A model generated the notes under the pieces. It saw only the letters and a list, made by a program, of their open reading frames with translations, was not told the DNA's origin and made no database searches. Below, one piece after another: positions 8,066 to 54,962 of a DNA stretch of 64,000 bases; position 1 is the first letter of the stretch, and each line of letters opens with the position of its first letter. The DNA comes from Byssothecium circinans (taxonomy: Eukaryota > Ascomycota > Dothideomycetes > Pleosporales > Massarinaceae), in assembly GCA_010015675.1 (NCBI GenBank), contig ML976985.1, positions 400,458 through 464,457 of the forward strand, written 5' to 3'. The translations under genes were made by a program, and so were the position numbers.

Positions 8066-8505
8066 TGGTCATCAATGTACTGCGATCATGTTCGCACTTC
8101 GGCCATTTCTCAGGTCTTGTCCTCTGTTAGCTTTGAAACATAGTGGTCTTGGAATATATCGGTCCCTACATTCAACTCTCTGATGTTTCCGCAAACACTT
8201 TTCATGCTGCAGCCTGCAAAATGCATGGATTAATATGACATCAAACAGTCCATAACGATCAATAATAGCTACATCTTTATCCTTGTATTCTTCTGCTATA
8301 CCGCTTTAATAGATCACATCAATGCAAACTGACGATGGATGAGAAAGCACGCACTCGCAATATTGCTTCGACATAGAACAAAATAGAATGAATAGATTTG
8401 CACCTCTAAAACACCATATCTAGGAACCACGAGCTTTATCTCCATCCCAAAGCGATCGTCTTGTCAACCAACGCACCATATGTGATAAAAAGAAGCCGAC
8501 ATCTC
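8066..8505. other. Intergenic between convergent genes
   Basis: 3' flanks only. No ORF or repeat recognised. Confidence 0.6.
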
Positions 8506-9744: not shown

Positions 9745-11330
9745 GTTGTCGACGACCACAAGTAGGTCAGAATATCTGCTAGCAAACAAGTGGAGAAGTT
9801 TGACGAGACCAAGTTCGAGAGGCTTTAACAGTATAAGGAAATATTAGCGCTGGTCGCGCTCAAGCTGTCTTTTGAGACCGCTTATATCGAATGCATGTGC
9901 TCAAGCACCACTGCGATGCAGTCAGAAACTCTTCATGTTTGGTTGTCAAATCAACCTCTCTGAGACCTGCTTTTAGCTGTAACGAGGAAAGCGGGGATAA
10001 CGCCCCGTCGGTACCAACCTACTGGGCTGTCGCCCATTTACTAAGAAGATCGTATCTAGTGAGTCACCAGCCAGCCTTACGTACTACAAGGGCATGATCC
10101 CAGCGTGCATAATGCGTTTATCCATCAATAATATTGCGAGAGCTCCACCCAGTCTATGTAACAGAAAGCCTTGTTGCATTGTCTTACTGCCTCGTTTAAT
10201 ATCGACGTGCTTGCATGCCACATGCTGACACCTCAAAATGCCTGTTGTACCACACCAAGTTCTCGGATTAGTAAATGATCTCGATCAAATGCGAGAACCG
10301 CGCCACAATAGATTGAACGTGGTTCAAAGTAAGCGACCCGTATGACAGCATTCGGATAGTATTATTTTGTACTCCCCGAGAGTTAGTGAACGCCCTCCCG
10401 TGTTAGACTAGGGGTAGAAGGATCTGCGATGCAGGTAAGCCTTTTTCACAACCTAACTTCAGCTTACCTTGGAAACAACACCGACCACGGAGAGCGACCG
10501 GCTTTTCAGGCACTTTTTTAATCTACAGTGTACTATGAGCTCTCCTGCGCCCCAAGAAGAGCTTTCGTAGGGCTAATACAATTAACCCCTAGTGTAGTTT
10601 GCCTAGATAGGTTCTCTGCCAATAAGCTCGTTCCTTAGGTTTATTCATAGTTCAATGAGTATCCTTGCTGGTACCGATAAGAGGTTCTGTTGGACAGTGG
10701 AGACCCGAGAGCAGCATGAGAAAGTGATGTATTGTGTGTCCGGCTGAGGAGAAGCGGCTATATAAGAAGGAGCCGACGCTAGACCAGAAGGAGAGAGCTG
10801 AACCGTCCGAAATGGTACAGTACTGTTCAATCCAATAGGTTCTTTACGTGATATTTTCGTCATTCACTGTATATGGTGGTAGAGGTTGCCGTGGGGTTGA
10901 TTCGTGATGGAGCCTACATTAGCACATAGAGAGGGCGTAACATTGGAAGTCACCTGGGAATCGTGGTTACTGTAAGCCCTTAACCGTTGAGAGAATCCAT
11001 AGCACCCACGGTTGACCCCAAAGGTTATTGCCCAGGTGCCTGTGCAGGTCAGGTGTATGCAGTGGAGTGAGACATTTTCGTATCAGGAAAGCAAGACGAT
11101 CGCGTGTTCTGCTCTCGTTCCTCGGGGCATATCATCTATGGAGGATGGAGTATCATGGACATGCAGGGTGCCTCACAAATGCTCTCATCTGACTAAGGCA
11201 AAAAACGGGCTGCTTCAGAAATCCTTGAACTGGTGCGACGAAGAGAGTTAGGCAACCTCATGAAATCTTCATAATGGACGTCATTCTGTGAATAGCGCTG
11301 ATACCATTTCCTTCGCGCCAGCAATAACCA
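9745..11330. other. Intergenic, no gene seen
   Basis: About 1.6 kb between the rhodopsin-like gene and the hAT insertion. A 72-codon minus frame at 10645-10863 has no recognisable similarity and was not called. Confidence 0.55.
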
Positions 11331-11338
11331 ATCCTGAA
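11331..11338. repeat. Target-site duplication ATCCTGAA, left copy
   Basis: These eight bases directly precede the hAT 5' terminus CAGTGTAC. The same eight bases follow the hAT end at 16257 (16258-16265). Eight base pairs is the hAT duplication length. Confidence 0.85.
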
Positions 11339-14300
11339 CAGTGTACTTCATGTGTGGGCCAGCCCACTTAGCCCATCCAGCCCATCCAGCCCATACGGCC
11401 CGGGCCAGCCCATGGGCCATATGAAACACGGTGAACGTCGTCTGATTGGCTAGTTAGGTGTTTTACTATAGTTTCGTATAGTTTCAGATAGTCAGGGATT
11501 ACAGTGAGGCATCAAAATCCAACGTCAACTCATCACGGTAATAGCCCTCAACCACCAGTATATACGTATTTGTATCATTTTCAGAAGTCTCCTATTAAAA
11601 TGAGGTTACGAAGCGGGCAACACCCCCTAAATACACCCCCCCCTCCATCAGATGGCCAATTATTGAGCAGCCAGCCCTCTTTGGTGCCCCTAACGTTGCC
11701 CTCGTCGTCGTTTTCCGTCCTATCTACGTCGTTCGAGATTTACGAGGATAATGACGCTGAGGAGGCCCTTACTGAGCTGGAGAGCAAGCAGGTCCCTTGC
11801 CCTACGGAGTTTTAGGTCACTAACGAGGACAGTGAGGTCGTACATGCCAAACTAATAGGCGCCTTTTAAGCCCTATACGACTACTCCTTTGTTGACTAGT
11901 CTTCAAAGCGTATGGAGACTCTCCGTCAGTTATCACGCCCCCACCGAACAACTGCTTGGTGGTGGAGCTATGGGGTTCCATTATTAGGGTTGGTTGGGCA
12001 AGACAGTGGCCTCTGGTTCTTGTGTCGCTCGTGCCACGTTAAAGGCCATAGTAATTGCCTGTATAAAGTGAATACAGGGAGCAGGGCAGTACTAGGCCAC
12101 TTCAGGAAGTCACATACATTAGTTTATATGGCGGCGTTAAACGATCCCGTACCTACGTTTGAAAAAGCGGCCACCCTTGACCTACTGGATAGAACTGACC
12201 CCCGACAACGTGAGGTCTACGTTCGGATGCAAGAGATATTTAAGCCAGAGGTACTTCAAAGGGACATCCTTTAGTGGGTAGTGTACGACAATATCCCTTA
12301 TCGCAAGCTTAAGAGTGTTCACTTTCGTCGGATCGTAGCCCGTATGTTCCTATTTGTTGATTAAGAGGTTATCCCGTCAGCCAACACCCTTTCACGCTGG
12401 ATTCAGAAGGAGTACATAGCCTATAAGAAGGAGATCCGGAGTGTAATAAGCAGGGCTATTAGCAAAATTCACCTATCATTTAACCTTTAGACGAGCTGTA
12501 GGAGGAAGGCTTTGAACGGGATTACAGCACATTTTATAGACGAGAACCTTCGGTGCCAAACCATACTTCTAGCCCTCCCGGAGATGGACGATACCCATAG
12601 TAGCAAGAACATAGCGGCATGTATGCTTGAGGTTATTAAGGACTACGAGTTCAGTAAGAACGTCGGCTACTTTGTACTGGATAATGCCTCTTCAAACGAC
12701 GTAGCCGCTAACGACCTATGCCTTGAGCTTGGTTTAAACAACCAACGGCTCCCTTGTTCTGGCCATATACTCAACCTAGTTGCACAAGCTACGCTGTACG
12801 GCAAGGACTTTGAGGTCTTTGAAAGGGAGGTTGCTCATATAAAGGACTTCAAGAGCGAGGTTGCCCTCTGGAGAAAGAGGGGGCCAGTTGGCATGTGCCA
12901 TTCAATTAGCCTATGGATTAATAGGAGCCCAGGACGAGTTAAGCGCTTTAATCGGGTGCAAGAGAGCGTGTGGAAGGACGAAAATCCTCAATCCTAGGGT
13001 GCCCTAGTACTGTATTCGTTGATTCCGGCCAATGCTATGAGATAGAACTCTACTTTTAACGAAGCTGTATAATTTATACGCCTCCGCAACTCTATTGAGG
13101 AGTTTCTAGACGTAGAAGCGCTTTGATACAGTAATTTGGTCGCTGCTAAGGAGAAAAGACTACTTAACGAGAAACTAGAGGACTTAGTTACCCAAATAAT
13201 ATTCCAGAACCGTATGGGGAGCGACGACTGGGCTATACTTACTAAGATTGTTGAGTTGCTCGAACCTATTAAGGAGAGCACTAAAAGGCTTGAAGGGAGA
13301 CTAGACGAGAGCAGTGCTAAGGGAATTGCAGAGGTGTACCCGTTAATGGCACTCATATTGGCTAATTTTGAAAAGCTGAAGGCTCAATATGAGAAGTCTA
13401 ACACCCCCAACGGAAAAGCTCTCTGGGCGGCAATTGAACAGGGATGGAATAAGGCTAACGAGTATTACAGTAAGCTTGATAACTCCCCAGTATACACGGC
13501 AGCTGTATTTCTAGACCCGCGGCTCAAATCTGAGTACTTAGCAAAGGAGTGGAAAGAGGAGGAAGCTACGCGGCAAGTACAGAAGGTGCGAGAGCTATGG
13601 GAGAGTAATTACCGTTAACTATCTCTACCTAAACTAGCCACTGTACTCTAGGAGACGTCTGCTAACGTTCAGCGGCATAAGAAGCGTAAGTACAGCTCTA
13701 TGGCTGAGGCTCTTGATCAGTCCTATAGTTTTCCCCTCCCAAAGAAGGCTATGGATGAGTTTGCCGTATACATGGCAAGTGCGCGAGATACAGATAGGGA
13801 CCTTGTGCTATCACAGTACTGGAGACGGCCCAACGTACGTGCAACGTACCCTACGCTTTCCTATATGGCTATCGACGTCCTAGCTATCCCAGCCATGAGC
13901 TCCGAACCAGAGAGAATTTTCAGTCAAGCTGGAAATACACTCACTGCCCGTCAAAACCGCCTCTCCGAACAATCCGTAGAGGCTGCCCTTTGTTTATCAA
14001 GCTAGGGCAACTCAGGGCTCATTCAAATGGGGCTCCATAACCAGGAGCTCCGTGGCAGTAGAAGCGCTAATTCAAACTCCCTAATCAACACCAGTGAGGG
14101 CAACGTTGACGGCGAGGTTCTTTTTCAAGAGAATTGGGCGGAGGTACTACAGGGCATGAGGGACAAACAACAGTAGTAAACGGAGCGTGAAATATATACT
14201 ATAGGGCAGAGTATCAAATTATTAGTGACAACTTTCAACTCTCTGAAAACAGCCCCGCAAACACTTTCACCAACACCAAGCTCAACACCAAGGGCCTCCA

Positions 14301-14459
14301 GGGACCTGATATTGCTGTACGTTTAAGCTTTCTACTACGTGTGACCCTTTGCCCATACAAGTTAGTACTACAGGGGGGTCGGTTTCAGTTGGCCCATGGA
14401 TTGGCCCGGGCCGCCCGGGCCAAATGGATGGGCGGCCCATCCATCCATGGAGTTCGCTG
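11339..14459 (+). mobile_element. hAT-superfamily DNA transposon, about 3.1 kb
   Basis: The left end reads CAGTGTACTTCATG and the right end, on the other strand, CAGCGAACTCCATG: imperfect terminal inverted repeats opening with CAG as in hAT elements. Inside both ends are many GGCCCA/GGCCCG words, including GGCCCGGGCC blocks (11351-11420 and 14390-14445), typical of subterminal transposase-binding repeats. Between them lies a single transposase frame. The base after the right end starts CATGCGTG, which does not match the left duplication ATCCTGAA; the match is found instead after a second copy of this right end at 16257. The element boundary on the right is therefore ambiguous. Confidence 0.85.
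11600..14176 (+). pseudogene. hAT transposase with 13 in-frame stops
   Basis: From the ATG at 11600 one frame reads through to TAG at 14174 with no frameshift, but is interrupted by stops at 11813, 11867, 11897, 12272, 12362, 12488, 12995, 13043, 13070, 13124, 13616, 13649 and 14003 (eight TAG, four TAA, one TGA). Domains in order: low-complexity N-terminus; BED-type zinc finger (LCRSCHVKG ... LGHFRKSH) near 12015-12120; the catalytic RNase H-like part with DNASSND, SGHILNLVA and FLDPRLKSEYL; and the hAT dimerisation end YPTLSYMAIDVLAIPAMSSE then ERIFSQAGNTLT. Several stops fall where relatives carry Trp or Gln, for instance before TSCRRKAL and NSTFNEAV. That fits C-to-T change on either strand, as RIP produces. 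The copy is not expected to make active transposase, though it may be mobilised in trans. Confidence 0.88.
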
Positions 14460-15297
14460 CATGCGTGAGATTGAACCTGAGAACATTGAGCTTGAGTTCG
14501 TCCGGCAGCTTGGTCCATTCCTCTCAAAAGGTTGGGTTGAGTTGAATTTGAAGAATCAACCACATAGAACCCCAGTTTTGCAACAATACCGGCAGTTTAC
14601 ACACTATTTCCTCCATGTTGGGATCACCTTCCCGAGGTCGTTGACTATCGCGACTGGGTAAGGGTACGTCGCCCACATGTCTGCGTGGGCCTGAAGGAGA
14701 GAAGGCGTGGTCAAAACGAGCGGCGTAGCGCTTGACTTCTCCAGTTTCGCAACGTCGTCACGCAAGCCAGGATCCGTAGTCACATCCATACCTAGGTATC
14801 GAAGGACGTAGACCAAGAGAATAAAGGCATCGTGATTGAGCTTCCGTTGTGAAGGTTGTCGATGTGGTGGACAAGGAAGCATACACACAAGTTGTGTTGG
14901 AAACAAGCGGAGTTGCTTAGCACACTGACATGTCGGGAAAGCTTCCAAGGTTGCTTGATCCACACGTGACGTATGATCACATGATGGTTCCTGCACTACT
15001 CCTGAACTATTCTGCACTATGTTCCCGTGAGCCTTATTAGCTGCTGAATACGGTATGGAGGCCAGTTGCCGTCATTTTAGAGCCTTACAAATTTTCAACA
15101 CATTCACGGAGTCAGACGTCTAGATGCACAGAACGAACGACTTGAGCATGGTATGCAGAGATTTTCGAACGATGAGAATTATGTATGTTGAATTTAGCCT
15201 AGCTCCAATACAGAGGAAGGGTAGTGAGCGTAATTAACGCCCGTATTATCGAATGAGCCCCCTCATCGCATTTCGCGAGGTAAATATCGTATCGTGA
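14460..15297. other. DNA between two hAT 3' ends; unrecognised frame
   Basis: Starts immediately after the hAT terminus at 14459. A minus frame at 14604-15017 (137 codons) has a coding-like C-terminal half (LLVYVLRYLGMDVTTD, ATYPYPVAIVNDLGKV) but no family I recognise; it could be a gene fragment. Confidence 0.35.
14604..15017 (-). CDS. Hypothetical protein or gene fragment
   Basis: An open frame of 137 codons from an ATG at 15017. The first half is low-quality sequence rich in Cys and Gln; the second half, from about RKLNHDAFILL on, looks protein-like. No domain was recognised. It lies inside the segment bracketed by two copies of the hAT right end, so it may be captured or misplaced DNA. 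Confidence 0.25.
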   Translation of the reverse strand: MQNSSGVVQEPSCDHTSRVDQATLEAFPTCQCAKQLRLFPTQLVCMLPCPPHRQPSQRKLNHDAFILLVYVLRYLGMDVTTDPGLRDDVAKLEKSSATPLVLTTPSLLQAHADMWATYPYPVAIVNDLGKVIPTWRK

Positions 15298-15990
15298 TTA
15301 TTCAAGCTTTCCGAACTGGAACTTGGCCCTCACCATTTCCTCCACAGCACCATTATAGTGATCGTTCAGAGTCTTCGACAAATCCCTCCCAAACACCACT
15401 TTCCCTTTCACCGGAAGCACAACATCATATTTAAATCCAGTGAGCTGCAAGAGCTCCTGAAAATTGGCGGGACGAGATCGAGTACAATTCAGAAAATGCC
15501 ATGTGACAAACACCGTAACATGTTTCAAGCCGGTGAGACCATAATCCCCCTGCATCAGTCGATAGAACATGTCCCAATCTGGCCACCTGAAGTAGAAGTT
15601 GTACTCAAGTCGGAAGATCAGAGGGCGAACGGTAGGACCCGGGAGTGGAAGATGGAACTCCGTGTACCTATAGTAGTTTCTATTAATGTCAGCCGTCAAT
15701 TCGAATGTGTTCGTCTTGTAAAACACTTCTCGCGCCAGAGATGCAATCTCGGAAGTCGTATGCATGTGGTGACGTAGCATGAATATCTCGTTCAGACCTG
15801 AATTCGCTCTCGCATCTTCGAGCCTGACGGGGCTGGAGGATGTGAGGTTATGACCAAGGACCTGGCGTTTCAACTCATCGGGTAGGCTCATCCAGCCTGA
15901 CACAAAGGAGGCTGGATTCGGGATGATGGGAAGTAGTACAGTGTCGAAATCCGCCTTCACCAGTCGTGGGCGTCTTGATGTGGAACTCAT
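15298..15990 (-). CDS. F-box-like fungal hypothetical protein
   Basis: An uninterrupted frame of 230 residues from the ATG at 15990 (MSSTSRRPRLVKADF). The stretch SGWMSLPDELKRQVLGHNL at residues ~35-53 resembles the start of an F-box-like motif found in many fungal proteins of unknown function. The rest (EIASLAREVFYKTNTFEL, ending GAVEEMVRAKFQFGKLE) follows the pattern of those proteins, which predict structural features rather than catalysis. The frame also stays open upstream to the N gap, so an earlier start cannot be excluded. It sits between two hAT ends and may have been carried there. Confidence 0.5.
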   Translation of the reverse strand: MSSTSRRPRLVKADFDTVLLPIIPNPASFVSGWMSLPDELKRQVLGHNLTSSSPVRLEDARANSGLNEIFMLRHHMHTTSEIASLAREVFYKTNTFELTADINRNYYRYTEFHLPLPGPTVRPLIFRLEYNFYFRWPDWDMFYRLMQGDYGLTGLKHVTVFVTWHFLNCTRSRPANFQELLQLTGFKYDVVLPVKGKVVFGRDLSKTLNDHYNGAVEEMVRAKFQFGKLE

Positions 15991-16118
15991 CTCCTGCGTT
16001 TGGTTGACGCCGACTATTGAGCGGACTGGATATTGGGAGACAATCCAGAGCTCTTGTTTCTCCCGCAGAAAGTAGGAAGTGCTCAAGGTGAGTGGATTCA
16101 ATTTGCTAGTGCCCAGCT

Positions 16119-16128
16119 NNNNNNNNNN
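16119..16128. other. Assembly gap (10 N)
   Basis: A run of ten N marks a scaffold join of unknown true length. It directly precedes the second copy of the hAT right end. Confidence 0.95.
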
Positions 16129-16257
16129 TCTACTACGTGTGACCCTTTGCCCATACAAGTTAGTACTACAGGGGGGTCGGTTTCAGTTGGCCCATGGATT
16201 GGCCCGGGCCGCCCGGGCCAAATAGATGGGCGGCCCATCCATCCATGGAGTTCGCTG
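16129..16257 (+). mobile_element. Second copy of the hAT right end, 129 bp
   Basis: Matches 14331-14459 over all 129 bases with one difference (G at 14426, A at 16224). It ends in the same terminus TTCGCTG and is followed by ATCCTGAA, the exact duplicate of the eight bases left of the hAT element at 11339. Its own left part is missing in the N gap. Confidence 0.9.
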
Positions 16258-16265
16258 ATCCTGAA
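16258..16265. repeat. Target-site duplication ATCCTGAA, right copy
   Basis: Identical to 11331-11338 and placed directly after the hAT terminus. The pair defines one insertion event spanning 11339-16257 in the present assembly. Confidence 0.85.
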
Positions 16266-16274
16266 AATCGTAAA

Positions 16275-17277
16275 ATGCATCAAGCCAACGACAGTCTCTC
16301 TTATCTGCGGAGAAATGTATTTTCATTGGTGAGTTTTTCACAAAGAGAAACGTTAAAGCCTGTGCGACTTACAATTGGGGTAATAGGCTCTACTTACTCC
16401 ATCGTTCGTTAAAACACTGTGGCTATTCACTCTGCGCGATATTCCTGCACTTATCATACCGCAAACGACCTTCGGCATCACAATCGCATTATCTGGGAAC
16501 ATCACCACTAATATACCTCAGCATTATTTATGGATCATTAAACGAATTCCACTGGTGGCTTTCTGGAATTGGATCAACGTCCTCCTCTTCTCCATCTCCA
16601 ACCAGCGGCTACCCGATTCTCTTCTCGAAGACACTTTGAACAAGCCCTGGCGCCCATTGCCATCACATCGAATAAGTCCGGCTCAAGCAAGAAGACTGCT
16701 TCTGGTGGTCATCCCTCTCGCACTCCTTGCAGCAGCGTTCCTCGGTGGATTACCTGAGCCCTTGCTTCTCATGGTCATGACTTGGATGTACAACGACCTA
16801 GGTGGTGCTGATGAAAGCCCTGTCATCCGAAATTTACTCAACGCTTTGGGAATTGCCTGTTACAGCTCCGCATCTGCCATTGTTGCTTCGGGGCATGATC
16901 GGCAGAACCTGAAAAGCGATACACAACTCTGGTTGCTTGTTGTCGCTGGTATTGTGTTCACAACTCTCCAAATTATGGACCTTGCGGATATGGCTGGCGA
17001 CGCCAGTCGTGGTCGAAACACCCTACCACTCCTTTATGGAAAAGATACTACGAGGTCTACAATCATCTTTTTTGTTCTTGGATGGTCGATCATCTGCCCT
17101 CTCATGTGGGGAGTAGGAGTTGTTGGAAAAGCTGTTTGTGTTGTCGCAGGATGCTGGCTTTCTTTGAGAACTCATCTTCGAAGGGGGATTGCAGAGGATA
17201 AAGTAAACTTTAAGATTTGGAGTGTTTGGACGATGGTTTTGTATCTTCTACCTCTGATGAAAAGATTGGGGCTCTGA
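16275..17277 (+). CDS. UbiA-type prenyltransferase family membrane protein
   Basis: Exons 16275-16328 and 16387-17277 join across a 58-nt GT-AG intron to give 314 residues. The first Asp-rich motif is NQRLPDSLLED starting at Asn90, and the second is DLADMAGDASRGRNTLP starting at Asp216; in UbiA enzymes these bind the Mg-diphosphate of the prenyl donor. Around them are hydrophobic helices (for example LLLVVIPLALLAAAFLGG, STIIFFVLGWSIICPLMWG). The sequence KPWRPLPSHRISPAQARRLL is a hallmark of the fungal subgroup often found in secondary-metabolite clusters. The acceptor substrate is unknown. The ATG lies 10 bp beyond the hAT duplication, so the transposon insertion has replaced or moved its promoter. 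A P450 follows 0.8 kb downstream. Confidence 0.83.
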
Positions 17278-18093
17278 AGGTATCTCTTCACTGATTGTAC
17301 GGCGGCTGCACTTGCGATAACTCACCATTTTCTTCGAATTTGGAATCCTTAGGCTTGAAGGCTACCTTTTAAAATCGAGTTAGAATATTTTATGGGAGTC
17401 CAATAGTCCTGTGGAGGGAAACGAATCCATAAACCCCTACTTCGACAACTACACACTTCCAGAAGGCTCGTGGATTGCGTAATCACGAGAATGAATCAGC
17501 GTAGTAGCTGCTAATCTCACCCGTCCAACTACTACATAATTTTACACTACCAAATAGGGCCATGAATCCAATGAACGGGCCATATGTGCCACCTAGCAGC
17601 TTCCAACGATGTTCACGCTGTGGCACCGAGAGCGTCTTTGAACCCAAACGTGAGTTTGCCAATCGCGATCCCTCTCGGGATTGTGCGAGGTTATCAGCTC
17701 AGCATAGTTAGGCAAACGTTCAGTAAATTAACGTGCATATGCTGGTCAGACAATTGAGGACCTTCCCTTTTTCGCCGTTCAGCTGCTATGGAACGAAAAG
17801 GCACCTCGAAAAAAGGCTCAACTGACAGGCATTCAAGTTCGTACATGCATATGTAGGTTGAAGCAGGAAAGGCAAGACTGTTGTGGAAAGCCGACCGGGC
17901 TTGGAGAATTTTTTGACCATTTTGGCGCTTACACCCATTTGATGGATCCTTCTAATGTGGGAGTGTGGCAAAGCGAATATTGAGTGCCCAGAAACCTATA
18001 CTTTTGTATCTCAAGATTACAAGAATTGACCACCAAAAAGCACCTTGACTCCTACGAATCCATACAGACACGCTCTAAACAGATTAGATCAAG
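17278..18093. other. Intergenic with a possible small zinc-ribbon fragment
   Basis: An ATG at 17562 begins a short frame containing FQRCSRCGTESVF, with a CxxC pair, and a possible GT donor follows (GTGAGT near 17651), but no convincing second exon was found. Probably a remnant or chance. Confidence 0.25.
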
Positions 18094-19879
18094 ATGTATA
18101 CCCCTTTGTATAGTATCGTGTGTGGAGTTTTATGTCTTTCTCTTGCATACCAAATCATTTGGTCGTTCAGCACACCATCGCCAGTGGCAGCAAAACTTTT
18201 GGCTGCTGTTATCGTTTTCATTGAATGGGTAAGTCAAGTGGTTGTTTGTTCATTCCAATAGAACGATGTTAACTTGGTACGGTAGCTATCATTGGTCGTT
18301 ACATACAGACTCATGCTCCACCCGCTCTCCAAATTCCCTGGGCCTTTTTTCGGGAAGATCACTGACTGGTATTCCATATATCACTGCATCCAAGGTGATA
18401 GGCATCTCAATTTTCATCGACTACATCTCAAACATGGTCAGTTAGAACTCTGCAGCAGGTTGTCGCTTAACTAATTGAGATGCCTAGGCCCGGTCGTACG
18501 TTACGGCCCCAACCGTATATCGATCAACTCAGTCTCCGCCCTCCAAGCCATCTACGGCCTCCAAGCGAACACACAAAAAGCAGAATGGTACACCGTTTGG
18601 AAGCAATTCTTCAAGACAGACATGTCCATGTCTACGATTGATAGGAAGAGACATGCAGTGAAGAGAAGGATTGTGACGCGAGCTATCAAAAGCATCTCAA
18701 TGAAGGAAATCGAGGGGAAAATCTTGAAGAATGTTCGGACTTTGTGTGATCAATTAGCGGCTGAAGACAGTGGGAGTGACTGGAGCCAAGCCAGAGATAT
18801 GACAAAGCATGTGGCATACTGTACTTCCGACATCATGGGTGATACAACTTTCAGCAAAAGTTGGAACCTGTTACATAGTGAAGAGAATCGGGATATGTAC
18901 TACATCCTTCCTCGTGGTATAGGTGGTCTCTCACTTGTAAGTCGACATGCAACCTCCATCAACATGTGGGAGAGACATTGTGCTAATCATCGCAGGTTGG
19001 TCATATGCCAGCGCTGATAAAGCTTCGCATAGTCCAAATCTTTCGGCCTGACCTCGTCCGTGATACGTATCGTTACGAAACGCTCAGCAACCAGACATCC
19101 GACTGGCGGACGGCACAAGACAACGACAAGTACCACGACTTCTACGGTTCACTCCTCAAGGCTCGTGATCCAGAAACGGGTAACAAACTTACTCGAGACG
19201 AGCGCGTTGCCGAGGCTGCTCTTCTCATTGTTGCTGGGTCAGATACTATGGCCACGGCGGTGACGTCGGCTATCTTCTATCTGCTTCATTATGCAGACAC
19301 TTTATCACGGCTACAAAAAGAAATCCGGGACACTTTCGAGACCGTTGAAGACATAACTATTGGTCCCGTACTATCGGGTTGCCAGTACTTGGTCGCGTGT
19401 ATTGATGAGGCTATGCGACTGTCTCCAGGGGTGGATCCGTGCTACAACGCGAGGTTCTTCCTGGTGGTTTGAACGTTGACGGCCAGTGGTACCCGCCTGG
19501 TACTGACATTGCGGTTCCCCACTATGCCTTGCATCATAATGAGGCTTACCATATCGAACCCTTCAAGTTCATACCAGAGCGTTGGATAAAGGGAGGGCTG
19601 TGGTCGGAGGCAGACATTTCGACAACACGATCGGCATTCATCCCATTTGGAGTAGGTCGTACCAGTTGCGTTGGGAAAGAACTGTCATACCAAGAGATGA
19701 CTATAATCATGGCCCGGATTGTGTGGCTGTACGATATGCGCCTTGCACCGGGAAGTCTAGTTGGTGGTGGCCACGAAAGCATGGGCTATGGGAGGACGCG
19801 CAGCAATGAATTTCAAACGTGGGACTCCTTTGTCAGTACACACGAAGGCCCGATGGTCCAATTCCGGCTGAGGAAGTGA
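18094..19879 (+). pseudogene. Cytochrome P450 with one frameshift
   Basis: Exons 18094-18228, 18286-18436, 18488-18936 and 18996 onward join in frame. They encode an N-terminal anchor (LYSIVCGVLCLSLAYQIIW), the PGP region LSKFPGPFFGKIT, the family start GPVVRYGPNRISIN, the I-helix AALLIVAGSDTMAT and the K-helix EAMR. At 19437-19438 one base is missing: SPGVDP reads into a short dead end, while the next frame gives VLQREVLPGGLNVDG, the PERW motif and the heme loop FIPFGVGRTSCVGKE. All catalytic motifs are intact on both sides, and no GT-AG intron can bridge the shift. This is either a recent null mutation or a single-base assembly error. The enzyme would be an ER-bound monooxygenase; pairing with the UbiA gene suggests a shared pathway. 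Confidence 0.8.
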
Positions 19880-27975: not shown

Positions 27976-30900
27976 ATGACTTGGGATACGAGGATTGTTA
28001 ACAACCACTCCACGGATATTACGGTACTATTTAGTCTTTAGAGGCTGGACTTGGTGCTGACGACGTGCGCAGGTCAATGACACTAATCTGGGTTCTGGTG
28101 CAAGTACCGTGCTTAGCGGTGTCAACGACGTGGTTGTCGCTGTCAGCTCAATTGGCACTGTCCGACTCACAGAACCCGGCGCCGATGATTTCCACCAGTA
28201 CATCTCGACCACATGGGCTGTGAAGGTTGTGGCTTCTGATAATGCCTACGTTCGATACTGGGGCTATGAAGGCCGTCCCACTCTGGTACTTGCTATCAAC
28301 GAGGATGACACGTTCACGTTGCCTGACCAGAACAATACTTCCTTTGACCACATCCCAATCAGTCGACCTCCGCTTGCTCAGTATGCCGGACAATACGACA
28401 CAAATACCCAATGGTGGGGTGGGTTCTTCTCTCCTTTGATTATCAACCAGGATGGCACCGTGTCTGTGGGTCCATCCGGCTTGTCCGGACGTCTGCAGGT
28501 TCAATATGACTCTAAAAGAGCACTGTCTCTCTGGACTGGACGAAATTCAAAGATACCAGTTTCAAGACTTGGTTTTCTCTGACCGGGACCGGCCAGAACA
28601 TATCATTCGCAGGTGATTTAAGCCCCCGACCGCAAGATGGAGGCACGCATTTCACTGGCTCTCTGTCCACAAACCAAGCGGACGCTTTTCATCTCCACGT
28701 ACTCAAGTATGAATTCCCGCTGTACTTCGACGCCTCTGGGAGGCGTCCGCTCTCATTTAGAGGACCTGGCGCTTTGGCCTGCAACACGAACAACAGCCCT
28801 TCCTCGCTCGATTTCTTCCGTCTGGCCCCGCTTGATGCGATGGATCGAATAAAGGGTTATCGGCTTTGGTGCAATGGCTTCTATGCGGGCACAGCGGACA
28901 CAATGTGGCAAGGCGACCGTTGCATCTCAGGCACCAAGGATACTTCGAAGGCGATCGTCTTCAAACCAAATCTAACGTCTTCCAAGCTGTTCAAGCTTGG
29001 CGCGCCTGACTAAATCAGCCCCTGGCCTCGTAATCCACCTCTGACAAGTCCAGTGCTCGCCTGCGAACTCGATTCCAGCGCTAGAACCCTTATCATGAAC
29101 GATGCCCTAGGGCCGTGGTTTTCTACTCTCAGGGTGCCACCTGTGTTCACAGCACGCTCAATATATGACACAGGTACTCGCTATCTGCAGTGCCACTACT
29201 TCTTTCTTGCGGTCGACTTCCCGCTAATGCTCACGAATGGCGCATCACTTCAGCTCTCTGGGGGTACATTCGTCACGCCAGATGGGGATGGCTCAACCCT
29301 CTTCCGCTTCACTCCTTTGGACGAAAATAACTACAAGCAAGGGTACCGTGTTTCTTCTGGGGGCAATTATATTGCTGGAGTCGGTACTTTTCAGGGGAAG
29401 ACCTGCATCAAAACTACCTCGAATTCCCAACAAGCCGATATCCTCAAGCTCAGGATCCTTCCCGATTCCACTTTCATGATTCAGAATACAACAACCCTCA
29501 ATGCTCTGTCCCAACCCATTGACCAAACTGGGCACGGCCAGGCTGACCTGGATTATGAGCTGCCAGGAGATAGAGGCGTGTATTCCGGTGTCAATCAAGT
29601 ATTTCAACTTCCCACTTGGTCAATGCGACTGATGCAGATGGCCTACCTTCCCGCATCGGTTGAATTTAGCCTGGCGTGATCGTCCAACAACAAAATAATC
29701 TATGCTGCTACTGGGTCGCTCAGTCTTGCAGCAGGGGATTCAATTACTGATACTCCCTCTGCGGTCGTTTCAGTAGCACCTCAAGACTCTTCAAAGGCGC
29801 ATTCAGGCTACCTGATGACGGTTGGCGGCTCCAAGTACGTCAAATATGCAGGCAGCGGTGTGTCAGTGAGCCTGGTGGACGATGCTTCTCAAGCTACACC
29901 GCTATGCATCGTGCGCCATGCAGACTCTACTCTATCCTTTTGGCATTGCATGTCGAACCATGTTTTGACGTCTAACGACGGCAACACTGTCGTTTTCACC
30001 GAGCTTAACGACGATGCCTTGGTAGAACCATCCTGGAGCGTAACGGAACCGCTGCAACACAGCCATCCGGCGCTTTTACGTACGGCAGCAGGTGTCTCCA
30101 AGCTCGCGGCCACATTAGGAGACACAGTCCATATCAAACCGATTGTATCAATGCTCAAACGCAATCTCTACGGCAAGAAAGGCATCACCTGGAATGTCTC
30201 GTTTAATAATGCTTTAGCATCGGATTGGTGGATCGCGACTCCAAATCATCCTTTCGTCAATTATGCAGATTTCGAAATGCCGGTGAAGGATGATCGTGCG
30301 ACGAATGATTTCAAACTCAAAGGCCCAATCTCCTGGGGACCCTGTTGATCCCAAACATCCTGCTGTGGCACTCGCCTCGAGCGTCACACAACCAGGTGGT
30401 CAGCCGCTGGTCTTGCATGCCGGCCACTCCCGTCTCATCTACGAACAGATGTATAAAGTCATGATCTCTGCGGACAAGTTCGTTGACGTGATGAGCCTTA
30501 TTCGCCGGGACGCCACCCCAAGCGGACAGTTCCTTGCAGCGTTTCGCAATGCCGTCACTTACTTGAGCAAAAAGCCCACAGCACAAGACATCACAATTCG
30601 CATTCTCTTCGGAATGCCTGGCGGCGATTGGGGAAAACCGGGAGTGATATCTGGCACCGGTCCCTACCAACCTGCGGGAGATGTGCTGCAGGAACTCGTC
30701 CGAGATGTCCAGTCGTCACGAATGAATGTATACATTGGGTATACCACGTCGACATTGGCATGGAATCATGCCAAGATGATTGCAGTGGATGGTGTAAAAG
30801 CTCTTGTCGGAGGACATAATATGTGGGATGGGGCATATCTTTGGGGTAACCCGGTCCAGGACACGTCAATGATTCTCTCCGGCCTGGCCGCAACCGACGC

Positions 30901-32131
30901 TCACCAATTTGCCGACTGCATGTGGGATGCGCAGATGAAGAGGTACTGGGCTCCGTTGCCTGTGACTACTATGTCGGATTATGAGGCCCCCTCATATAAC
31001 AGCAACATCAAATCTTTCTCCATGCCCGACAGGGTAACCAACTCTGGTTTCAAGGCCGTTCCACCAGCATACGCTTTCGCAAAGGTGATTGGTGAGCGGA
31101 AGGATGATCCAAACAGAACATCAGGCAGCGGCATACCCATGGTCTCAGTTGCTCGTGAGCAGAACGACTTCGCGGGTTCGGCAGCAAGCGACAAGGCGCT
31201 CATTGCCTTGCTTGATTCCGCATCTACCAGTATCCACATTTCGGCCCAGGCGATGAAGAACCACTACGGTTTCGGAGACGACTGGAACGAGGATTTCCTC
31301 AAAGCTCTCGCAAGAGCGCTCGTGCGACAGGTTTCTATTAAGCTCTTCATGTCAGATGCCACAAACGAAGGGTCCTACCAAGGGGACCAACCTGGCAACG
31401 TGATGGGCCAAATACAAAACCGCATCGAGGGAAAGACGCCCCAAGAAATCCAGACGCTGGTCACAAGACTCAAGGTGCAGTCTTTCCCTCCTTCCACCTT
31501 CTGGGGATTCAGCAACGGTGCGCCCGGCTGCTCGAACCACGCCAAGGTGATCGTGGTGGATTCCCGCGCGGCAAGCATTGGATCACAGAATTACTATCCC
31601 AGCTCGAGCGCGAAGATGGCCGAGTTTACCTACATCTTTGAGGATATCACCAAGGCCACCCAGCTCATCAATGGATACTTCACACCCTTGGCTGCGTGGT
31701 GTGTGGCTGCTGGCCCGCCCCCAGCACTACCGTCTTCGGCTCCGCCACGGTACACCGTTACCATCACTGGTATCTACTGTCAGAAAATCTCAGGCGGCGG
31801 GTTGGGACGATTTTCCCCTGACCAAGTGTACTTGAAAGGAGCAAGCGGTGGCAAAATCTGGCCCACCGATAATCGGTTTCAGGTCATGAACACCAACAAT
31901 GCCATCTCGTCCTTCAACGTGGCGTTGCCCAGCTTCACTGCATGGGACAATCCCGCCACCGTTGCCGCTTACGAGTGGGACTGGCTCTCGGACGACCATC
32001 TAGGAGACTGGGAGTTCAAGGCGAGCGACTTGCAGGGCAAGGACATGAGCTCGCGTTATAACATGAAGGGCAAGATGGACTCTGACACCGAGGCATCCTA
32101 TTATTTGTATTACACGTTCCAGGTAACATGA
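27976..32131 (+). pseudogene. Phospholipase D-like (HKD) protein gene, broken
   Basis: An ATG at 27976, a 49-nt intron (28024-28072) and then a long frame run to 32131, but with a shift near 28520-28530 in a TCTCTCT tract, TAA at 29011, TGA at 29677 and a second shift near 30335. Conceptually about 1,370 residues. The last ~600 residues carry two HxK(x)4D motifs, HAKMIAVD (about 30767) and HAKVIVVD (about 31538), the paired catalytic halves of the phospholipase D superfamily. A beta-rich C-terminal domain follows (RYTVTITGIYCQK onward). The upstream half has repeated units of the form F(R/F)(L/F)(A/T)PLD...GYR, suggesting beta-trefoil or fascin-like repeats. Each lesion is a small change, so two sequencing errors plus two stops is possible, but decay is more likely. 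Confidence 0.75.
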
Positions 32132-32666: not shown

Positions 32667-35600
32667 TCAAACCCTGCCCTGCATCCCCTGATACCTCAAC
32701 TGCTCCACACCAACACTCCCCGCCAACTTAAGCGCCCTCAATCCCGGCGCCCCATGCGCATCCCCACTGAACTTCCTCCTACCACTACTGTTGCTACTGC
32801 TACTACTACTCAGAGCCAGCGAGGCACGTGGCGAGGCCGGCAGTGGCGTGCCACTTCGCGGCGGTTGGCGGCGATTCAAATGCAACGTCGCTGCATTCAT
32901 TGCATCTGCTGGACTTGCCCGGGTCAAAGCAGATGTTATGGAAAGAGCCGGCGAATGCAGAGGAGTCAGAGTCGGGGTGTTCTTAGGCGGTAGAGCGGGT
33001 AGGAGATGCGCGTGTGCTTGGAGCTGGCGATGGTTTAGCTGTGAGATGTTCTTTTCGAGCGAGGGAGTTCGGGCTCTGACGCGGAGCGGAGCGGGTGCTG
33101 GTAGTGGCGATATTGAACCGGGGCTGGCGTTACCGCGGAAGCGGAGATTGTTGTTGCTGCTACTTGAGATGGAGCTTGGTGTCTTTGTGTGAGTCTGTGG
33201 GGCGAAAGAGGGCGCCTGTTGGGGATGCTTCCCGTATGTCGCCATTAAACTAGCGAAGTCGTATTCGGCGGGCAACTTGCTCAATCTCCGGATGGTGGAC
33301 ATGTTGTCGTTGATGAATGTTGACATGCGTCGAAGCGCACCGCCTTGTGTAGACATGTCGAATGTACTCGGTGCTTGTGAAGTGTTCGCAGCCCGGGCAG
33401 TGTGCATGTCTGCTAGCCTTCGTGGTTGTTGTATTTCGGAGCTGGGTGAGGTCATGATTTGAGAGTTAGATTGTAAAGTATGCTGCGCGCTGGCGAATAT
33501 GGAGGCAAAGTCGACGTTCAACTCATTCTGTCCTGGGCGTGACCGAAGTCCAAGCGACGTCCCATCACTCGCAGACATTGACGGAGGTTGCGCTAAGACG
33601 AAGAACGACCCATCTATAATCTTTCTGCGAACGTTGTTCCATCGAGTGCGAGCAGGATTGCTTTCGATCTCTGGTCGGTAGATGGATTCCTGGGAAAGGG
33701 CGGCATAGTAGGCTTCCAGACGCGCGGCGATGCGTTCGAGGACAGTGAGAAGATACGAAGCTAGTTTCACCTGAAAGCGTAAGCGAGGGATTCTCCACAT
33801 GCATGCTAGAGCGACTTACATGCTTAGAAGCTGCGGGCTCATCCATTGCAGCGACTAGATCGAAAGCGTCCATTCCCTGTGCAGCCTCGTCCCTGATCTG
33901 CTCGAGAAAAGAAACGTCCAGCTCCGTTACTGTCTGAGCGTACCGCAGGATTCCGTTCTCATGGAAACGTGCCGACTTGCTGTTGTTGGAGACGAATTGC
34001 CCGATGTGGGAGACTTCTTGCATAGCCTTGCTCGCATCTGGAGAGGAGTGCGCTCGAGTGATCATCCCGATGATATCGGGAAGCCTAACAGTTGGCGCCA
34101 GAGCATTCGCCATCGCAAAGGAGAGCTTCAGGTATATCTCCTGGAGCTTGGCCTGTGTTCTGTTAGCGAAGAAAGTGATTGTAATCCGATATTACTTACT
34201 CCGAACAAAGTTGAGAAGCCATTCTGCATCAAGCGACTTTGGAATTGATAGAACTTTCTCACCCCGCCGATATTGAAGAGCCCCCCAGAGAACCACACTT
34301 TCGAATCCTCGAGAATGTTATTGGCTTCAAAATAGAGTGTAGTCAAGCTTTCTACACTGGTTCGCAAGTAGAGGTTCCACATGTCATAAAGCAGGCTGAT
34401 CTCGGTTGAGCGAAAGTCGGGTTTCCTGGATAGGTGGCCGATGAAGTATTTGGAGAGAAGCGATGAAACCTCAGGGTTGGTCTATAGAAGTCAGCGTGGT
34501 GAATGTACTTTGGGTGAGGGATGCGTACATCGTGAGCGAGTTCATGAAACGTCTTCGTGGCATCTAGGCCGGCGCTGGCTGCAACAATCAAAGTACCACC
34601 TGGATGCATGGGCAGAAAGTCTGTCACGTCGTATACTCCACCATGCACGCCAATCCACATGCGTGAGCCTTTCCGGTGGCCTGTATGTGCCGCCAGCTTC
34701 GACATTGCAATAGTCGGGGTCGAGCTCGAAATTGCCCTAGGTGTCATGAAGATATCTAGGGAAGAATATTAGTAAGGCATTCCACCACAGCACATGGAGG
34801 CACTCACCAAGCATGAACCTCCGTTCTGCAAAAGCCGTGGCCAACAGCGAATCAGCCGTCGACTGTGTAGAAGCTTGGTACTTGTATATAGCCCGCTTGA
34901 TGCCCGACATAACAGTCTCGTACACAGACACAGAACCGCAGATGTACATATAACCACCCAGGCCGCCTTGTGTCTTTGACATGACCAATTCAGAAACAAG
35001 ACGACCTTGTTCGACGATAGTCGAATCGATGTAGCTCGGCTCCATATCTTGCTCCACAAGCTCCCTCATTGTTGGGTCATACACCAAGCCTCGGCGATCG
35101 CGTGAAAACGCAGTGTGAAGCTCCAACGACCCGTACTGTACCAGACCACGCAACTCAGCCTCGTGGAGGAACTTGTCGCGCGATTGAACGCCAAGAAAGA
35201 GTATGTTCCTTCCGATGCCTTGTTGGACTCGCTTCTGCCAGAAACCACGGAAAGGAGCAATACCTGACCCACCTGCGAACATGGCTACCGGAACTGTTGT
35301 CGATGGTGGTAACTGGAACTGAATGGGACGCGATACTCCAATGAGGACGGATTGGTCGTCCGAGCCGTCACAGGGAATATGTTCGACGGCAGGGGCTGGG
35401 TTGAGAAACCCGCTCGATACCCCGTACAGAGGAAGGGACGGTTGTATGTTCTGGAAGATTGGATCGCGTGCGGATTCTGTACGCGACACTGTAAGGTCGA
35501 TGAGGCTCGGTAGTAATTCATTGGAAGAATTGGAAATGGAGTATGTCCGCGGTACTTCCAAGGAGATCAGCTTCGGTAGCCACGCAAGGTTGGAAAGATC

Positions 35601-37965
35601 GAAAGCACGGTCCCAGATATCTTGTGGTACCTCCGCAATAGCAGATTGAAGAAGGTCCCCCACGCTTCCCTTGATGGGCCATTCATTCGCGGCGAGAAGC
35701 TTGAGTGTGATTTGGGAAGAGGCACGGAGCACTTGATGGATCTGACATGTGTTAGTCTGTTGAAAAAAGAGTAACAGAGCGACCATACTGAGATAACGAG
35801 GTCCTTTGTCAGAGGGGCGAGATGACCGCGCCTGAGGACCTCCTTGACAGTCAAGCCAGCGCTGGGAACCTTGGAAACCAGTTCAAGATGCTTGGAAAAC
35901 CGTGCCCACTCAGAGCCTTGCTCGACGGGAACAACTGCATCCCACATGTCTTCGAGACCTAGAGCAGCTGCGACCTTGGCGGTCTCATAAGAAGGGTTAC
36001 ATGGCATGACTGCCAAACGGTCACCTGGAGTTGTTAGTATAATAGGGTAAAGATAGAGACTTGCAGTAGGCTTACCAGGCTGGAAGGTGATACCAGTATC
36101 GTGCAAGTCGAACGTTACCATACCAGTCGACCTATTAGGATCTTGGTCTATGATTTGTCGTTCCAAAATCCGAGCCTGGAAGCGACATTCTTCAAAGCTG
36201 CCGCGCATCTGGTGGGGTTGAACCTTGACCTCACCTCGATAAGGATCTAAACGCTCCTTCATTGAATCAGATAGGGTTCGGTGAACCTCTTCCCAAGCTC
36301 GACCTTCCTGATCACCGCCACCAGCATTTCCGTTAGTTTCTGCCCGGCCAGTCTTGGCTACGACTTCAAGGAAGCCATAAACCTTGTACCTATGTGTTCC
36401 CATGAATCCACGTTCTCCAGCATACGACTCGATGATGCCTTCCAAAACCCCAGCAAGTCTGGGGTCACCACTGGCTTTTACAAATTCCGGAATGCGATAG
36501 TGGTTTTCAATCGCCGTGATGAACGCTCGGATGTTAAGCGGTAACCATCGTCGCAGGTGGACGGCTTCAATACCGAGGACTGTAGGTTGGATAAAGTCAG
36601 TTGATGTCTCACCTGTGACTCAATCATTGGCCTGACCTACAAGACGTATACTTTGTTCTACCAATGAAGGCATCCATGAGTAAAAATAACGGAAGAGCAA
36701 GTCCAGACAGAGCTGGGACGCGTTTTGAGAGTGGAGCGCTGAACTTTGCATATCTTTGGCCCCACTCGACGGGATTCGCGAACTGCTCACCAGCGTTCGG
36801 ATTGACACTGATTTTGTGAAAGACGTAGGCTAGCTGGTCGACTAGCTCCTTCAGTGCGACGAGCTCATGAAGAAGAGCTTCTGGGTTGCGGTTCATTACA
36901 GATTCCTGGCATCGAGTGATGGTCTCGACACCAGTCTGAAAGCAGCCGTGTACCTCAGCCATGCAAAGAAGGAACATCGCTTCGCCGCGGTCGTTGAAAA
37001 CCTGTAGTGGTTAGCCTAGCATCGAGCATGTTCTATGAAATGCCTACCGGCCACCTCAGATCCATGTTCTCTGTACGAGCAACGTAGGGCTGTACACTGG
37101 TCGGATCCCGAAACTTAAAATTATAGATTGACACGTCGAATTGTGTTAAATGTGGCAAAGCTCTTCCCATCCTTGTGCAGATTTGTCGAAGGGGAATGGC
37201 AATGTTCCTTGGGATGCCCTTAGTCTCCTCCTCTTCATCGTCGTCACCTTGGATATTCTTGAACGTGCCCTGTGGTGGTACTACTGCAACACCTTCATTA
37301 CCATCGTTCATTTCCTCATATCTGTAGACGCTGGCTAGGATTCCTAGGCATACTGTTGCAGCCCACAATGCTCGGTCGGGAATCACGTCGGGCGTGCCAT
37401 ATACGAGTGGCAAGGCGAGGATCGAGTTGCGCATGTTTCCTCGAGCGACTACACCAGGCATACGTTCGCACAAATCTGACCATATACGGCCCGGCGACGC
37501 GCGTAGAGCAACAGGCGCATCGCTTGGGTCAGGTGGGAGGAAACCGTATGCGGAGGAAAGGTAGCCATCCTTCCATCCTGTCTGCGGTCCGATCTCTTCC
37601 GCCCGCATGAGTACCCTTCTCGCAGGAGCACCGAGGGCGAAAGCGAGGAGGTCGTCATCCTCCGGCTGGAGAATATCTGCGTTTTTCAGGCCCTTGGTGA
37701 CTTGGCGAGCAGGAGCTTCGGGCATAAGCATCTCATTCAAGGCTTTACGCTCTTTTTCGTGGAGTGTATGGGTATCTCCCGAGCCCTGTAAGGTGTTAGA
37801 AAAGCCTTATTTATTGCTGTGGGCACTCACATCAGAGTAGACAGTCGGTGCTCCCATGTTCGGTTGGAAAGCAGCGAACGCACATCCACGAGGTCCAACA
37901 CGACCTGCTGGACATCCACTGGACACTGAGCCGGTTCGATGGCTGACAGGACATGTCTGCTCCAT
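32667..37965 (-). CDS. IDO-like dioxygenase / FAD-NADPH reductase / cytochrome b5 fusion, 1,617 aa
   Basis: Ten exons (37831-37965, 37048-37785, 36641-37001, 36076-36579, 35789-36024, 34808-35741, 34529-34755, 34200-34481, 33820-34152, 32667-33770) join in frame across nine GT-AG introns of 45-61 nt. Residues ~50-500 are an indoleamine 2,3-dioxygenase-type heme domain: LALPLVYGTPDVIPDRALW, RTENMDLRWPVFNDRGEAMF, EVHGCFQTGVETI and His474 in GTHRYKVYGF, the expected proximal heme ligand. Residues ~510-960 are a reductase of the P450-reductase FAD/NADPH type without an FMN domain: GDRLAVMPCNP, RTYSIS (723-728), GGSGIAPFRGFW (815 on) and YICGS. Residues ~1000-1060 are cytochrome b5 with HPGG His1020 and second ligand His1044, the canonical 24 apart. 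Residues 1060-1330 are helical and unknown; the rest is disordered. Electron flow NADPH-FAD-b5-heme is inferred. Confidence 0.87.
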
Positions 37966-53146: not shown

Positions 53147-54962
53147 ACGTATTCCACCACCGAGCGCGCCAGTTTTCCTTGGCAACACCAACTTACTCAA
53201 CTTCATCCTCATTATCGTCCACATCGCTACTTGACATGATAAACTGAGTACTAGCCTCCGACTCAGAAGAACCCTCTTTATCTGCTCGACATGTTCTCGC
53301 GTTATGCCCAGCCTTACCGCAGTTGCCGCAGTGGCGAACACCTGGTTGTCGCACTTCAGGTTCACCCTCCACCCTCGCCCTCTTACGGTTCTGAACGGTT
53401 CCTAACGGTTTAGAACTGACCTGGTCTGCTGTAGGACCAAACTCCATAGTACCACCCTTCTAAAGATACTTGCGTTTGCGTGTTTTACGCTTAGTTACCG
53501 CCGCAAGTTGCTGTTCAAGCTCTTCAATGCGCGACTTCATGAGCGCAGTATTATGCAGCACTAACTCAGTGCCTTTAACGAGCTGCGAAAGCCCATCCTG
53601 CGCTGTTCGTGGTGACCGAGTAATAGAATCACGTACGAACTTTGACTGTAAGCCAAATTCACGTGTATTACTTGGAGTCCTCGGTAGCCATGGCGTCTCT
53701 AGTGGTGAGGGTCCTGGTGGGGTGCGTATACGCACATTAAGGTGATTAAGTACCACCTGCGCGTTCAGAGGGACTAGCCCTGTTGCCTCAAAGGCCTTTC
53801 GACAGTTCTGAACCGTAAACACGCTTGAAAACGCGTCTTTAAAGGCTGGTAGGAACGCTTCCTTGTTAATGTGAAAGACGCGCTGTTGCGCCAAGCCCCG
53901 AACGATCTTAGAGTACTTGCGCTTGAGCGGCGAGAATAACACCACATCAAGCGGCTGGAGGATGTGTGACGAGTGCGCTGGCATACAGAGCGTAAGGATC
54001 TTATTGTCGTGACAATAATCCTTGAAATCTTGATTTAGGTGGCTTTCGTGGCCATCCAAAATCAGCAACCGATAGACGCCGACAGTTCTCGCCTTTGTAT
54101 GCGCGTTAAAGTGCTTTAACCACGCGAGACCAAGCTCATTGGTCGTCCATCCATTCTCTGAGACCAAGAGCTTCTAATCGCGTAGTATATCGGCTTCCTG
54201 GTACCACGAAGAGATGTGGACGCGTCCTTTGTATATAATGAATGGCGGAGTGAATGTACCATTTGAACATATACTCTGGATGTCTGTCACCCACTCCTTA
54301 TCGCCTGGCTAAACTGTTGTAGGCCTTTCTCGCTTCTCTAAGCCAGTAACCACTTTCATAGAGCCAATAATACCCATCTGAAAGCCGGTCTTATCGAAGT
54401 TGTGTATATCGTCATCGTGTACGCCGTACTTCGCTTTAGTGTCCTCTACAAGCTTAAACCACGCGCTAACCACCTCAGGATCTTCCTGTAGAGCTCTCTG
54501 ACGGTCCTTCGAACGGTTTCAGGCTGTTCGTAACGGTTCTGAACGGTTCACGAACCGTTCTGCCTAGTTATGGCCAACCTTATCTCCACCCCGTTCACCC
54601 AGTAGTTTATTCGCCATATCTGACACTTCGCCCAACGTAGGCGCAAATCCTCGCGAATCAAGGTCAAGGATGTATTTAACAAGCGTGTCCTCTTCGGTCG
54701 AGGATAGTTTTGAACAGTTCGGAACTGTTATAGGTCGAAAGGTGATTCCGCGCGCGCGTCGAGAGAGGGACTGATGACGAACGTTAAAGGCTCCAGCAGC
54801 GCGTCGGAGGCTTTGAAATTGGCCTAAATGGTAAGCTTGAAGGGCAAGCTCAATTCTGCCTTCTTGTTGAATAAGTAACGTGTTTGTTGGTTGAGGCATT
54901 TCGTGATGAGTGTAGTGTTGGTGTTGCCAAGGAAAACTGGCGCGCTCGGTGGTGGAATACGT
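53147..54962 (-). mobile_element. Fot1/pogo-type DNA transposon, 1,816 bp, complete ends
   Basis: Bounded by 46-bp perfect inverted repeats, 53147-53192 and 54917-54962, starting ACGTATTCCACCACCG. TA dinucleotides flank both ends (53145-53146 and 54963-54964), the target duplication of this superfamily. A single minus-strand transposase frame fills nearly the whole interior, starting 17 bp from the right repeat and ending directly at the left one. It lies in AT-rich DNA. Confidence 0.95.
53193..54899 (-). pseudogene. Fot1/pogo transposase with five in-frame stops
   Basis: From ATG at 54899 one frame of 569 codons runs to TAA at 53193 without a frameshift, but stops interrupt it after KVGHN (near 54561), after EPLRTA (near 54522), after RPTTV (near 54312), after ILRD (near 54177) and after KRKYL (near 53460). 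Domains: N-terminal helix-turn-helix (SLRRAAGAFNVRHQSLSRRA); CENP-B-like domain; DDE nuclease with DIHNFDKTGFQMGI, LLILDGHESHLN and MPAHSSHILQPLDV; and a C-terminal CCHC zinc knuckle CGNCGKAGHNARTC. Three stops fall where Trp is usual and at least one where Gln is usual, as C-to-T mutation on either strand would give. The perfect terminal repeats suggest the element is young and could still be moved in trans. Confidence 0.88.

Follow-up and report, generated by a model that had tools for sequence, protein, structure and literature searches.

How is the heme of indoleamine 2,3-dioxygenase (IDO) kept reduced in the cell? One account still calls this unclear and places cytochrome b5 (b5) and cytochrome P450 reductase among the candidates (PMC13142367). 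A gene of the Pleosporales fungus Byssothecium circinans, located in a stretch of 64,000 nucleotides of contig ML976985.1 (positions 400,458 to 464,457; hereafter the window), joins an IDO fold to a reductase and b5 in cis and makes the question directly testable. According to gene models and conservation, an oxygenase-type domain and an electron chain fed by reduced nicotinamide adenine dinucleotide phosphate (NADPH) lie on one polypeptide. We estimate at about 0.5 the probability that this gene encodes a one-chain, NADPH-fuelled heme oxygenase of the superfamily of IDO and tryptophan 2,3-dioxygenase (TDO), the heme-dependent aromatic oxygenases.

Gene structure and domain architecture

The fusion gene runs on the minus strand from 37965 to 32667; its ten exons are separated by nine GT-AG introns, each 45-61 nucleotides (nt) long. 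As the original prediction had held, a single frame stays open throughout: the spliced translation has 1617 codons and a stop, with no internal stop. Over the part searched, this translation is 100% identical to P0001 (CC80DRAFT_467607; 1613 amino acids, aa), the protein deposited for B. circinans. Intron 1 has two possible donors, and P0001 lacks four residues of the ten-exon model (VYSD), consistent with a donor 12 bases upstream and a 57-nt intron. A homologue search with residues 100-1330 as query yielded 370 proteins at E <= 1e-5, of which the best 120 are listed; alignment, residue counts and tree comprise the 109 listed proteins longer than 1390 aa, with 11 shorter ones left out. The features of the gene are as follows.

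32667..37965, minus strand: whole fusion gene, in the order IDO fold, reductase for flavin adenine dinucleotide (FAD) and NADPH, b5, helical domain, Ser/Pro-rich tail (spliced translation; deposited P0001)
37861..37965, minus strand: N-terminal tail, residues 1-35, with C5-P6, C18-P19 and GPRGC28 (alignment of 109)
36233..37635, minus strand: IDO-fold domain, residues ~96-527, exons 2-4
36672..36674, minus strand: Asp401, opposite Asp274 in the MAFFT alignment (109/109)
36392..36394, minus strand: His474, putative proximal heme ligand (109/109 full-length proteins; fungal IDO alignment)
34739..36196, minus strand: FAD/NADPH reductase, residues ~540-975, with RTYSIS, GSGIAPFR, AFSRD, CGS and MLDIF (Pfam; Foldseek; sulfite reductase profile)
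34419..34711, minus strand: b5 domain, residues ~985-1066 (Pfam Cyt-b5; PDB matches to cytochromes b5)
34604..34606, minus strand: His1020, putative b5 heme ligand 1 (108/109, one gap)
34532..34534, minus strand: His1044, putative b5 heme ligand 2 (109/109)
33585..34418, minus strand: all-helical C-terminal domain, residues ~1067-1312 (245 residues), with the NPARxRW motif (conservation; model)
32670..33584, minus strand: Ser/Pro-rich, poorly conserved tail, residues 1313-1617 (conservation profile)

Judged by the Pfam scores of its four domains, all above their cut-offs, the fusion architecture is not a chance product. The 51-nt intron at the joint of the IDO and reductase parts (36075-36025) leaves the frame open if retained, so that the joint is independent of its splicing. 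Furthermore, the B. circinans genome holds a second copy of the fusion on contig C17, 48-55% identical to the window's gene and outside the 109-protein tree, with the following feature.

L013 2519-6067, minus strand: uninterrupted open frame of 1183 codons in the C17 paralogue

This frame contains the IDO C-lobe (with GAHRYKV), the reductase, b5 and the C-terminal domain, and the domain linkage thus follows without any splicing argument.

Reductase and cytochrome b5

In the reductase module, Pfam recognises FAD_binding_1 (42.5 bits, cut-off 32.3) and NAD_binding_1 (30 bits, cut-off 22), and the motifs RTYSIS and GGSGIAPFRGFW, both named in the original prediction, are found in the translation. 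Residues R723, Y725, S726, S871, R872, C926, D970 and F972 are invariant (109/109), and position 879 is occupied by Tyr in 93 of the 109 proteins and by Phe in 14. Among curated families, the profile of the sulfite reductase alpha subunit matches best (E 9e-23); like all NCBIfam matches of the module, this one falls below its cut-off. Foldseek retrieves the FAD domains of P450 reductase, sulfite reductase and P450 BM3. No flavodoxin domain binding flavin mononucleotide (FMN) was found in the fusion protein by Pfam at E up to 1; on this sequence evidence the reductase is the FAD/NADPH half only and no complete diflavin reductase. The sulfite reductase alpha subunit, NADPH-P450 reductase and the reductase of nitric oxide synthase (NOS) share its FAD and NADPH modules, but the fusion protein differs from them in its partners as well as in the missing FMN domain. 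The earlier label "P450-reductase-type" is an imprecise one, given the missing FMN domain and the best curated match.

The b5 domain matches Pfam Cyt-b5 at residues 989-1062 (55.7 bits, cut-off 23.7; E 5.2e-15). Its two putative ligands are 24 residues apart and, together with His474, stand where the original prediction had placed them.

How does this arrangement compare with known one-chain systems? P450 BM3 and the fungal P450-reductase fusions (CYP102/505) also carry a heme oxygenase and an NADPH/FAD reductase in one chain, with a matching FAD-domain fold, but the fusion protein has an IDO fold instead of a P450 and, behind the reductase, b5 instead of an FMN domain. We know of no fused NADPH reductase or b5 in IDO, TDO, PrnB, MarE, TyrH or SfmD. 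Compared with IDO1, IDO2 and fungal IDOs (PF01231), the fusion protein is ~20% identical, is changed at the place of Ser167, has no secure equivalent of Phe226/Arg231, and is additionally joined to the reductase, b5 and the helical domain. Fusions of b5 and b5 reductase are known in fungi, with b5 N-terminal to the b5 reductase (PMC4557397). They share b5 and a flavin reductase with the present protein, but the passages on them describe no oxygenase domain (PMC4557397).

The IDO-fold domain and its predicted pocket

The Pfam IDO profile (PF01231) matches residues 121-356 with 51.2 bits (cut-off 26; E 1.1e-13), inside residues 50-500, where the lack of any such match had been named as grounds for rejecting the original prediction. 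Re-scoring on five sequences gave 62.9 bits for P0082, 41.9 for P0048 and 27.4 for the N-terminal part of the paralogue, all above the cut-off. The domain has the two-domain IDO fold, and the IDO part of a modelled relative is 19-20% identical to IDO1 and IDO2. Aligned profile to profile (hhalign, local) with four other IDO sequences, 108 IDO parts of the family gave a probability of 98.5 and E 1.8e-15; the aligned columns stop before the proximal His. In the MAFFT alignment, H474 is aligned with the proximal His of fungal IDOs, past an insert of three residues just before it, and the human IDO stretch ends right before its own proximal His. We take H474 to be the counterpart of His346 of human IDO1, and D401 presumably corresponds to Asp274, beside the proximal His.

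In human IDO1, Ser167, Phe226 and Arg231 are pocket residues, with Arg231 binding the substrate carboxylate. The position aligned with Ser167, which is not essential in human IDO1, is Cys in 60, Met in 47 and Val in two of the 109 proteins, and Ser in none. The stretch of Phe226 and Arg231 faces a gap in both alignments; the nearest candidate for Arg231 is R374 (Arg in 99/109, Gly in 7/109), and W371 is kept in 109/109.

A proposed electron path and reaction

The sequence shows the covalent linkage at the level of gene models, the identity of the domains, the putative ligands and cofactor motifs, and how these are conserved; for electron order, oxygen chemistry and substrate we infer the following course. 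NADPH would pass hydride to the FAD of the reductase module, which would release single electrons to the b5 heme held by His1020 and His1044. The b5 domain would act as a one-electron shuttle, in the role that an FMN domain plays in diflavin reductases, and would reduce the IDO-fold heme at His474, which could then bind O2 and oxidise a small, probably aromatic substrate. Classical IDO requires electrons only for start or rescue. A permanent supply suggests instead that electrons are used at each turnover, or for continual ferrous rescue, rather than as one priming electron. Since such a chain exceeds the need of classical IDO and the pocket is changed, we favour, with moderate confidence, a reaction or substrate that differs from classical tryptophan (Trp) dioxygenation; candidates would be aromatic mono-oxygenation or nitric oxide (NO) dioxygenation. 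The fuller proposal is more tentative, at just under an even chance: that the IDO/TDO superfamily gains in this protein, an ancient one, its first self-sufficient member, with b5 in the FMN-domain role, a non-classical reaction, and the helical domain and Cys-Pro tail as family-specific regulators.

The literature bears on parts of this proposal. It has been proposed that b5 reduces IDO under physiological conditions; human IDO1 is less active with it than in the methylene blue assay (PMC4191572). In vitro, IDO1 is supported by P450 reductase alone or together with b5, and the role in vivo is called unclear (PMC13142367). The statement that b5 and P450 reductase can reduce IDO1, on which the original prediction drew, is borne out in part. 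Changed functions have precedents in PrnB, MarE, TyrH and SfmD, in which a His-ligated heme oxygenase fold serves diverse chemistry (PMC11791213).

Several points weigh against the proposed NADPH-fuelled oxygenase. With PrnB, a relative within the superfamily, neither b5 nor P450 reductase led to a product (PMC11791213). The Pfam IDO match is confined to the first portion of the domain, and two of the five re-scored sequences, P0013 and the paralogue's C-lobe frame, gave none. R374, if it is a shifted Arg231, may speak for Trp as the substrate, and loss of the Trp-binding residue set could also signify a non-catalytic domain.

Alternative explanations

Could the protein simply be a self-sufficient L-tryptophan 2,3-dioxygenase, its reductase and b5 serving only to make or keep the heme ferrous and its product being N-formylkynurenine? 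The IDO fold and the proximal His/Asp pair are preserved, b5 and P450 reductase are reported IDO1 reductants, and R374 (99/109) could play the part of Arg231. The explanation is nevertheless unlikely, as the Ser167 position is Cys, Met or Val in 109/109, no firm equivalent could be assigned to the Phe226-Arg231 stretch, identity to IDO is only ~20%, and two other strong IDO genes exist in the genome. The original claim of a self-sufficient dioxygenase divides: one conserved polypeptide with IDO fold, NADPH/FAD modules and bis-His b5 agrees with it, but a Trp-acting IDO is unsupported at the Ser167 and Arg231 positions.

A second explanation makes the protein an IDO-fold analogue of flavohemoglobin, that is, an NADPH-driven NO dioxygenase (or an enzyme of other NO/O2 chemistry) against nitrosative stress, with the IDO heme replacing the globin. 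Flavohemoglobin has a heme domain followed by FAD and NADPH modules, an order that the fusion protein shares. Unlike flavohemoglobin, the fusion protein has an extra b5 and helical domain, and it has no Pfam match to a globin domain at E up to 1. The abalone IDO-like myoglobin, described as an IDO fold turned O2 binder without Trp activity (PMC4191572), shows that such a fold can bind O2. We regard NO dioxygenation as improbable.

A somewhat smaller probability still goes to a heme or redox sensor or an NADPH oxidase producing reactive oxygen species, in which the chain would reduce O2 or report heme or redox state and the Cys-Pro tail would be a heme-binding regulator. The conserved N-terminal CP motifs, the altered canonical substrate residues and the conserved helical domain without a convincing fold match would agree with it, but the very strong conservation near His474 across phyla fits catalysis equally well or better. 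A transcript boundary between the IDO and reductase parts, so that no single protein would exist in vivo, is very improbable in view of the paralogue's single 1183-codon frame, the frame-neutral intron and the architecture shared by deposited proteins of many fungi.

Distribution among fungi

The domain search proposed in the original prediction finds IDO, FAD_binding_1, NAD_binding_1 and Cyt-b5 together in 105 of the 120 listed matches, the window's own included. The other 15 divide as follows: ten have no IDO match, two no NAD_binding_1 and three no Cyt-b5. Nine of the ten without IDO are shorter than 1390 aa, eight of these starting at residues 292-305; the tenth is P0013 (1428 aa). Listed matches span Ascomycota (by their names, presumably Dothideomycetes, Eurotiomycetes, Leotiomycetes, Sordariomycetes and Pezizomycetes), Basidiomycota (Rhizoctonia, Serendipita, Marasmius, Mycena) and the chytrid Gaertneriomyces, and include a relative in Podospora comata. 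Judged by its presence in three fungal phyla, the four-domain architecture is old. Two scans of genome contigs and one of viral contigs, weak ones with two peptide patterns each, confirmed no bacterial, archaeal or viral relatives.

The midpoint-rooted tree of the 109 proteins splits into groups of 47 and 62, and at least seven listed organisms have a protein in each: Amniculicola, Lentithecium, Lindgomyces, Periconia, Paraphoma, Leptodontidium and Pseudogymnoascus VKM F-4246. A free-standing IDO part was considered and rejected, as the 120 listed of 125 matches appear, from the listing, to be incomplete gene models belonging to this family. Two proteins have other combinations, each possibly a gene-model error: P0176 (Didymella, 700 aa) has IDO and Cyt-b5 without a reductase, and P0177 (Ceratobasidium) has IDO with PF04433.

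Public databases name the relatives automatically, as NADPH--hemoprotein reductase, sulfite reductase flavoprotein or "related to nitric-oxide synthase". The last name is probably due to their reductase part; the fusion protein has no Pfam match to the NOS oxygenase domain at E up to 1. The fusion protein seems to be uncharacterised: no description was found by title or abstract start in the open-access literature, outside which most subscription journals lie. A survey of IDOs in Aspergillus set its E-value limit at 1E-30 (PMC7448278), a limit that such proteins would have failed, given E 1.1e-13 for the present one. If the proposed oxygenase is real, it would represent an unstudied family common to moulds, mushrooms and a chytrid, and possibly a single-component biocatalyst.

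Terminal regions

The original prediction had overlooked the helical domain (~1067-1312), the Ser/Pro-rich tail and the N-terminal Cys-Pro motif. About one third of the 109 rows have gaps in the N-terminal tail; where the tail exists, its Cys-Pro motifs are near-constant and the rest varies, with C5 in 69/72, C18 in 65/67 and C28 in 78/78 non-gap rows. These motifs resemble heme regulatory motifs. The helical domain is well conserved in the alignment and matched no Pfam family. A search with this domain gave 40 matches, 40/40 of which map to residues 812-1617 of the fusion protein, with no free-standing form among them. The model of P0124 (matching part from ~residue 1124) is almost wholly helical, with a predicted local distance difference test score of 76.9, and structure comparison gave no convincing fold match for it. 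The domain may serve as a scaffold or dimeriser.

Other genes in the genome and the window

The two strong canonical IDO genes of B. circinans lie on contigs C43 and C80, and a further IDO-like gene lies on C3. A FAD_binding_1 search found nothing on the contigs of the C43 and C80 genes; the same search also missed the window's own reductase, and the stand-alone state of these IDOs is therefore not proven by it. Open frames around the two genes contained no further recognised domain.

Within the window, an open frame at 15301-16182 (minus strand) contains undetermined residues (X), pointing to a short gap in the assembly or to masking. Pieces of an MFS transporter, a short-chain dehydrogenase, a UbiA prenyltransferase and a P450 lie within 16 kb at 3028-19014, perhaps a secondary-metabolite cluster, with no evidence tying it to the fusion gene. 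A DDE_1 transposase-like piece lies at 53463-54173 (minus strand). A phospholipase D-like frame of 614 codons at 30287-32131 (plus strand) is convergent with the fusion gene and ends ~0.5 kb from its 3' end.

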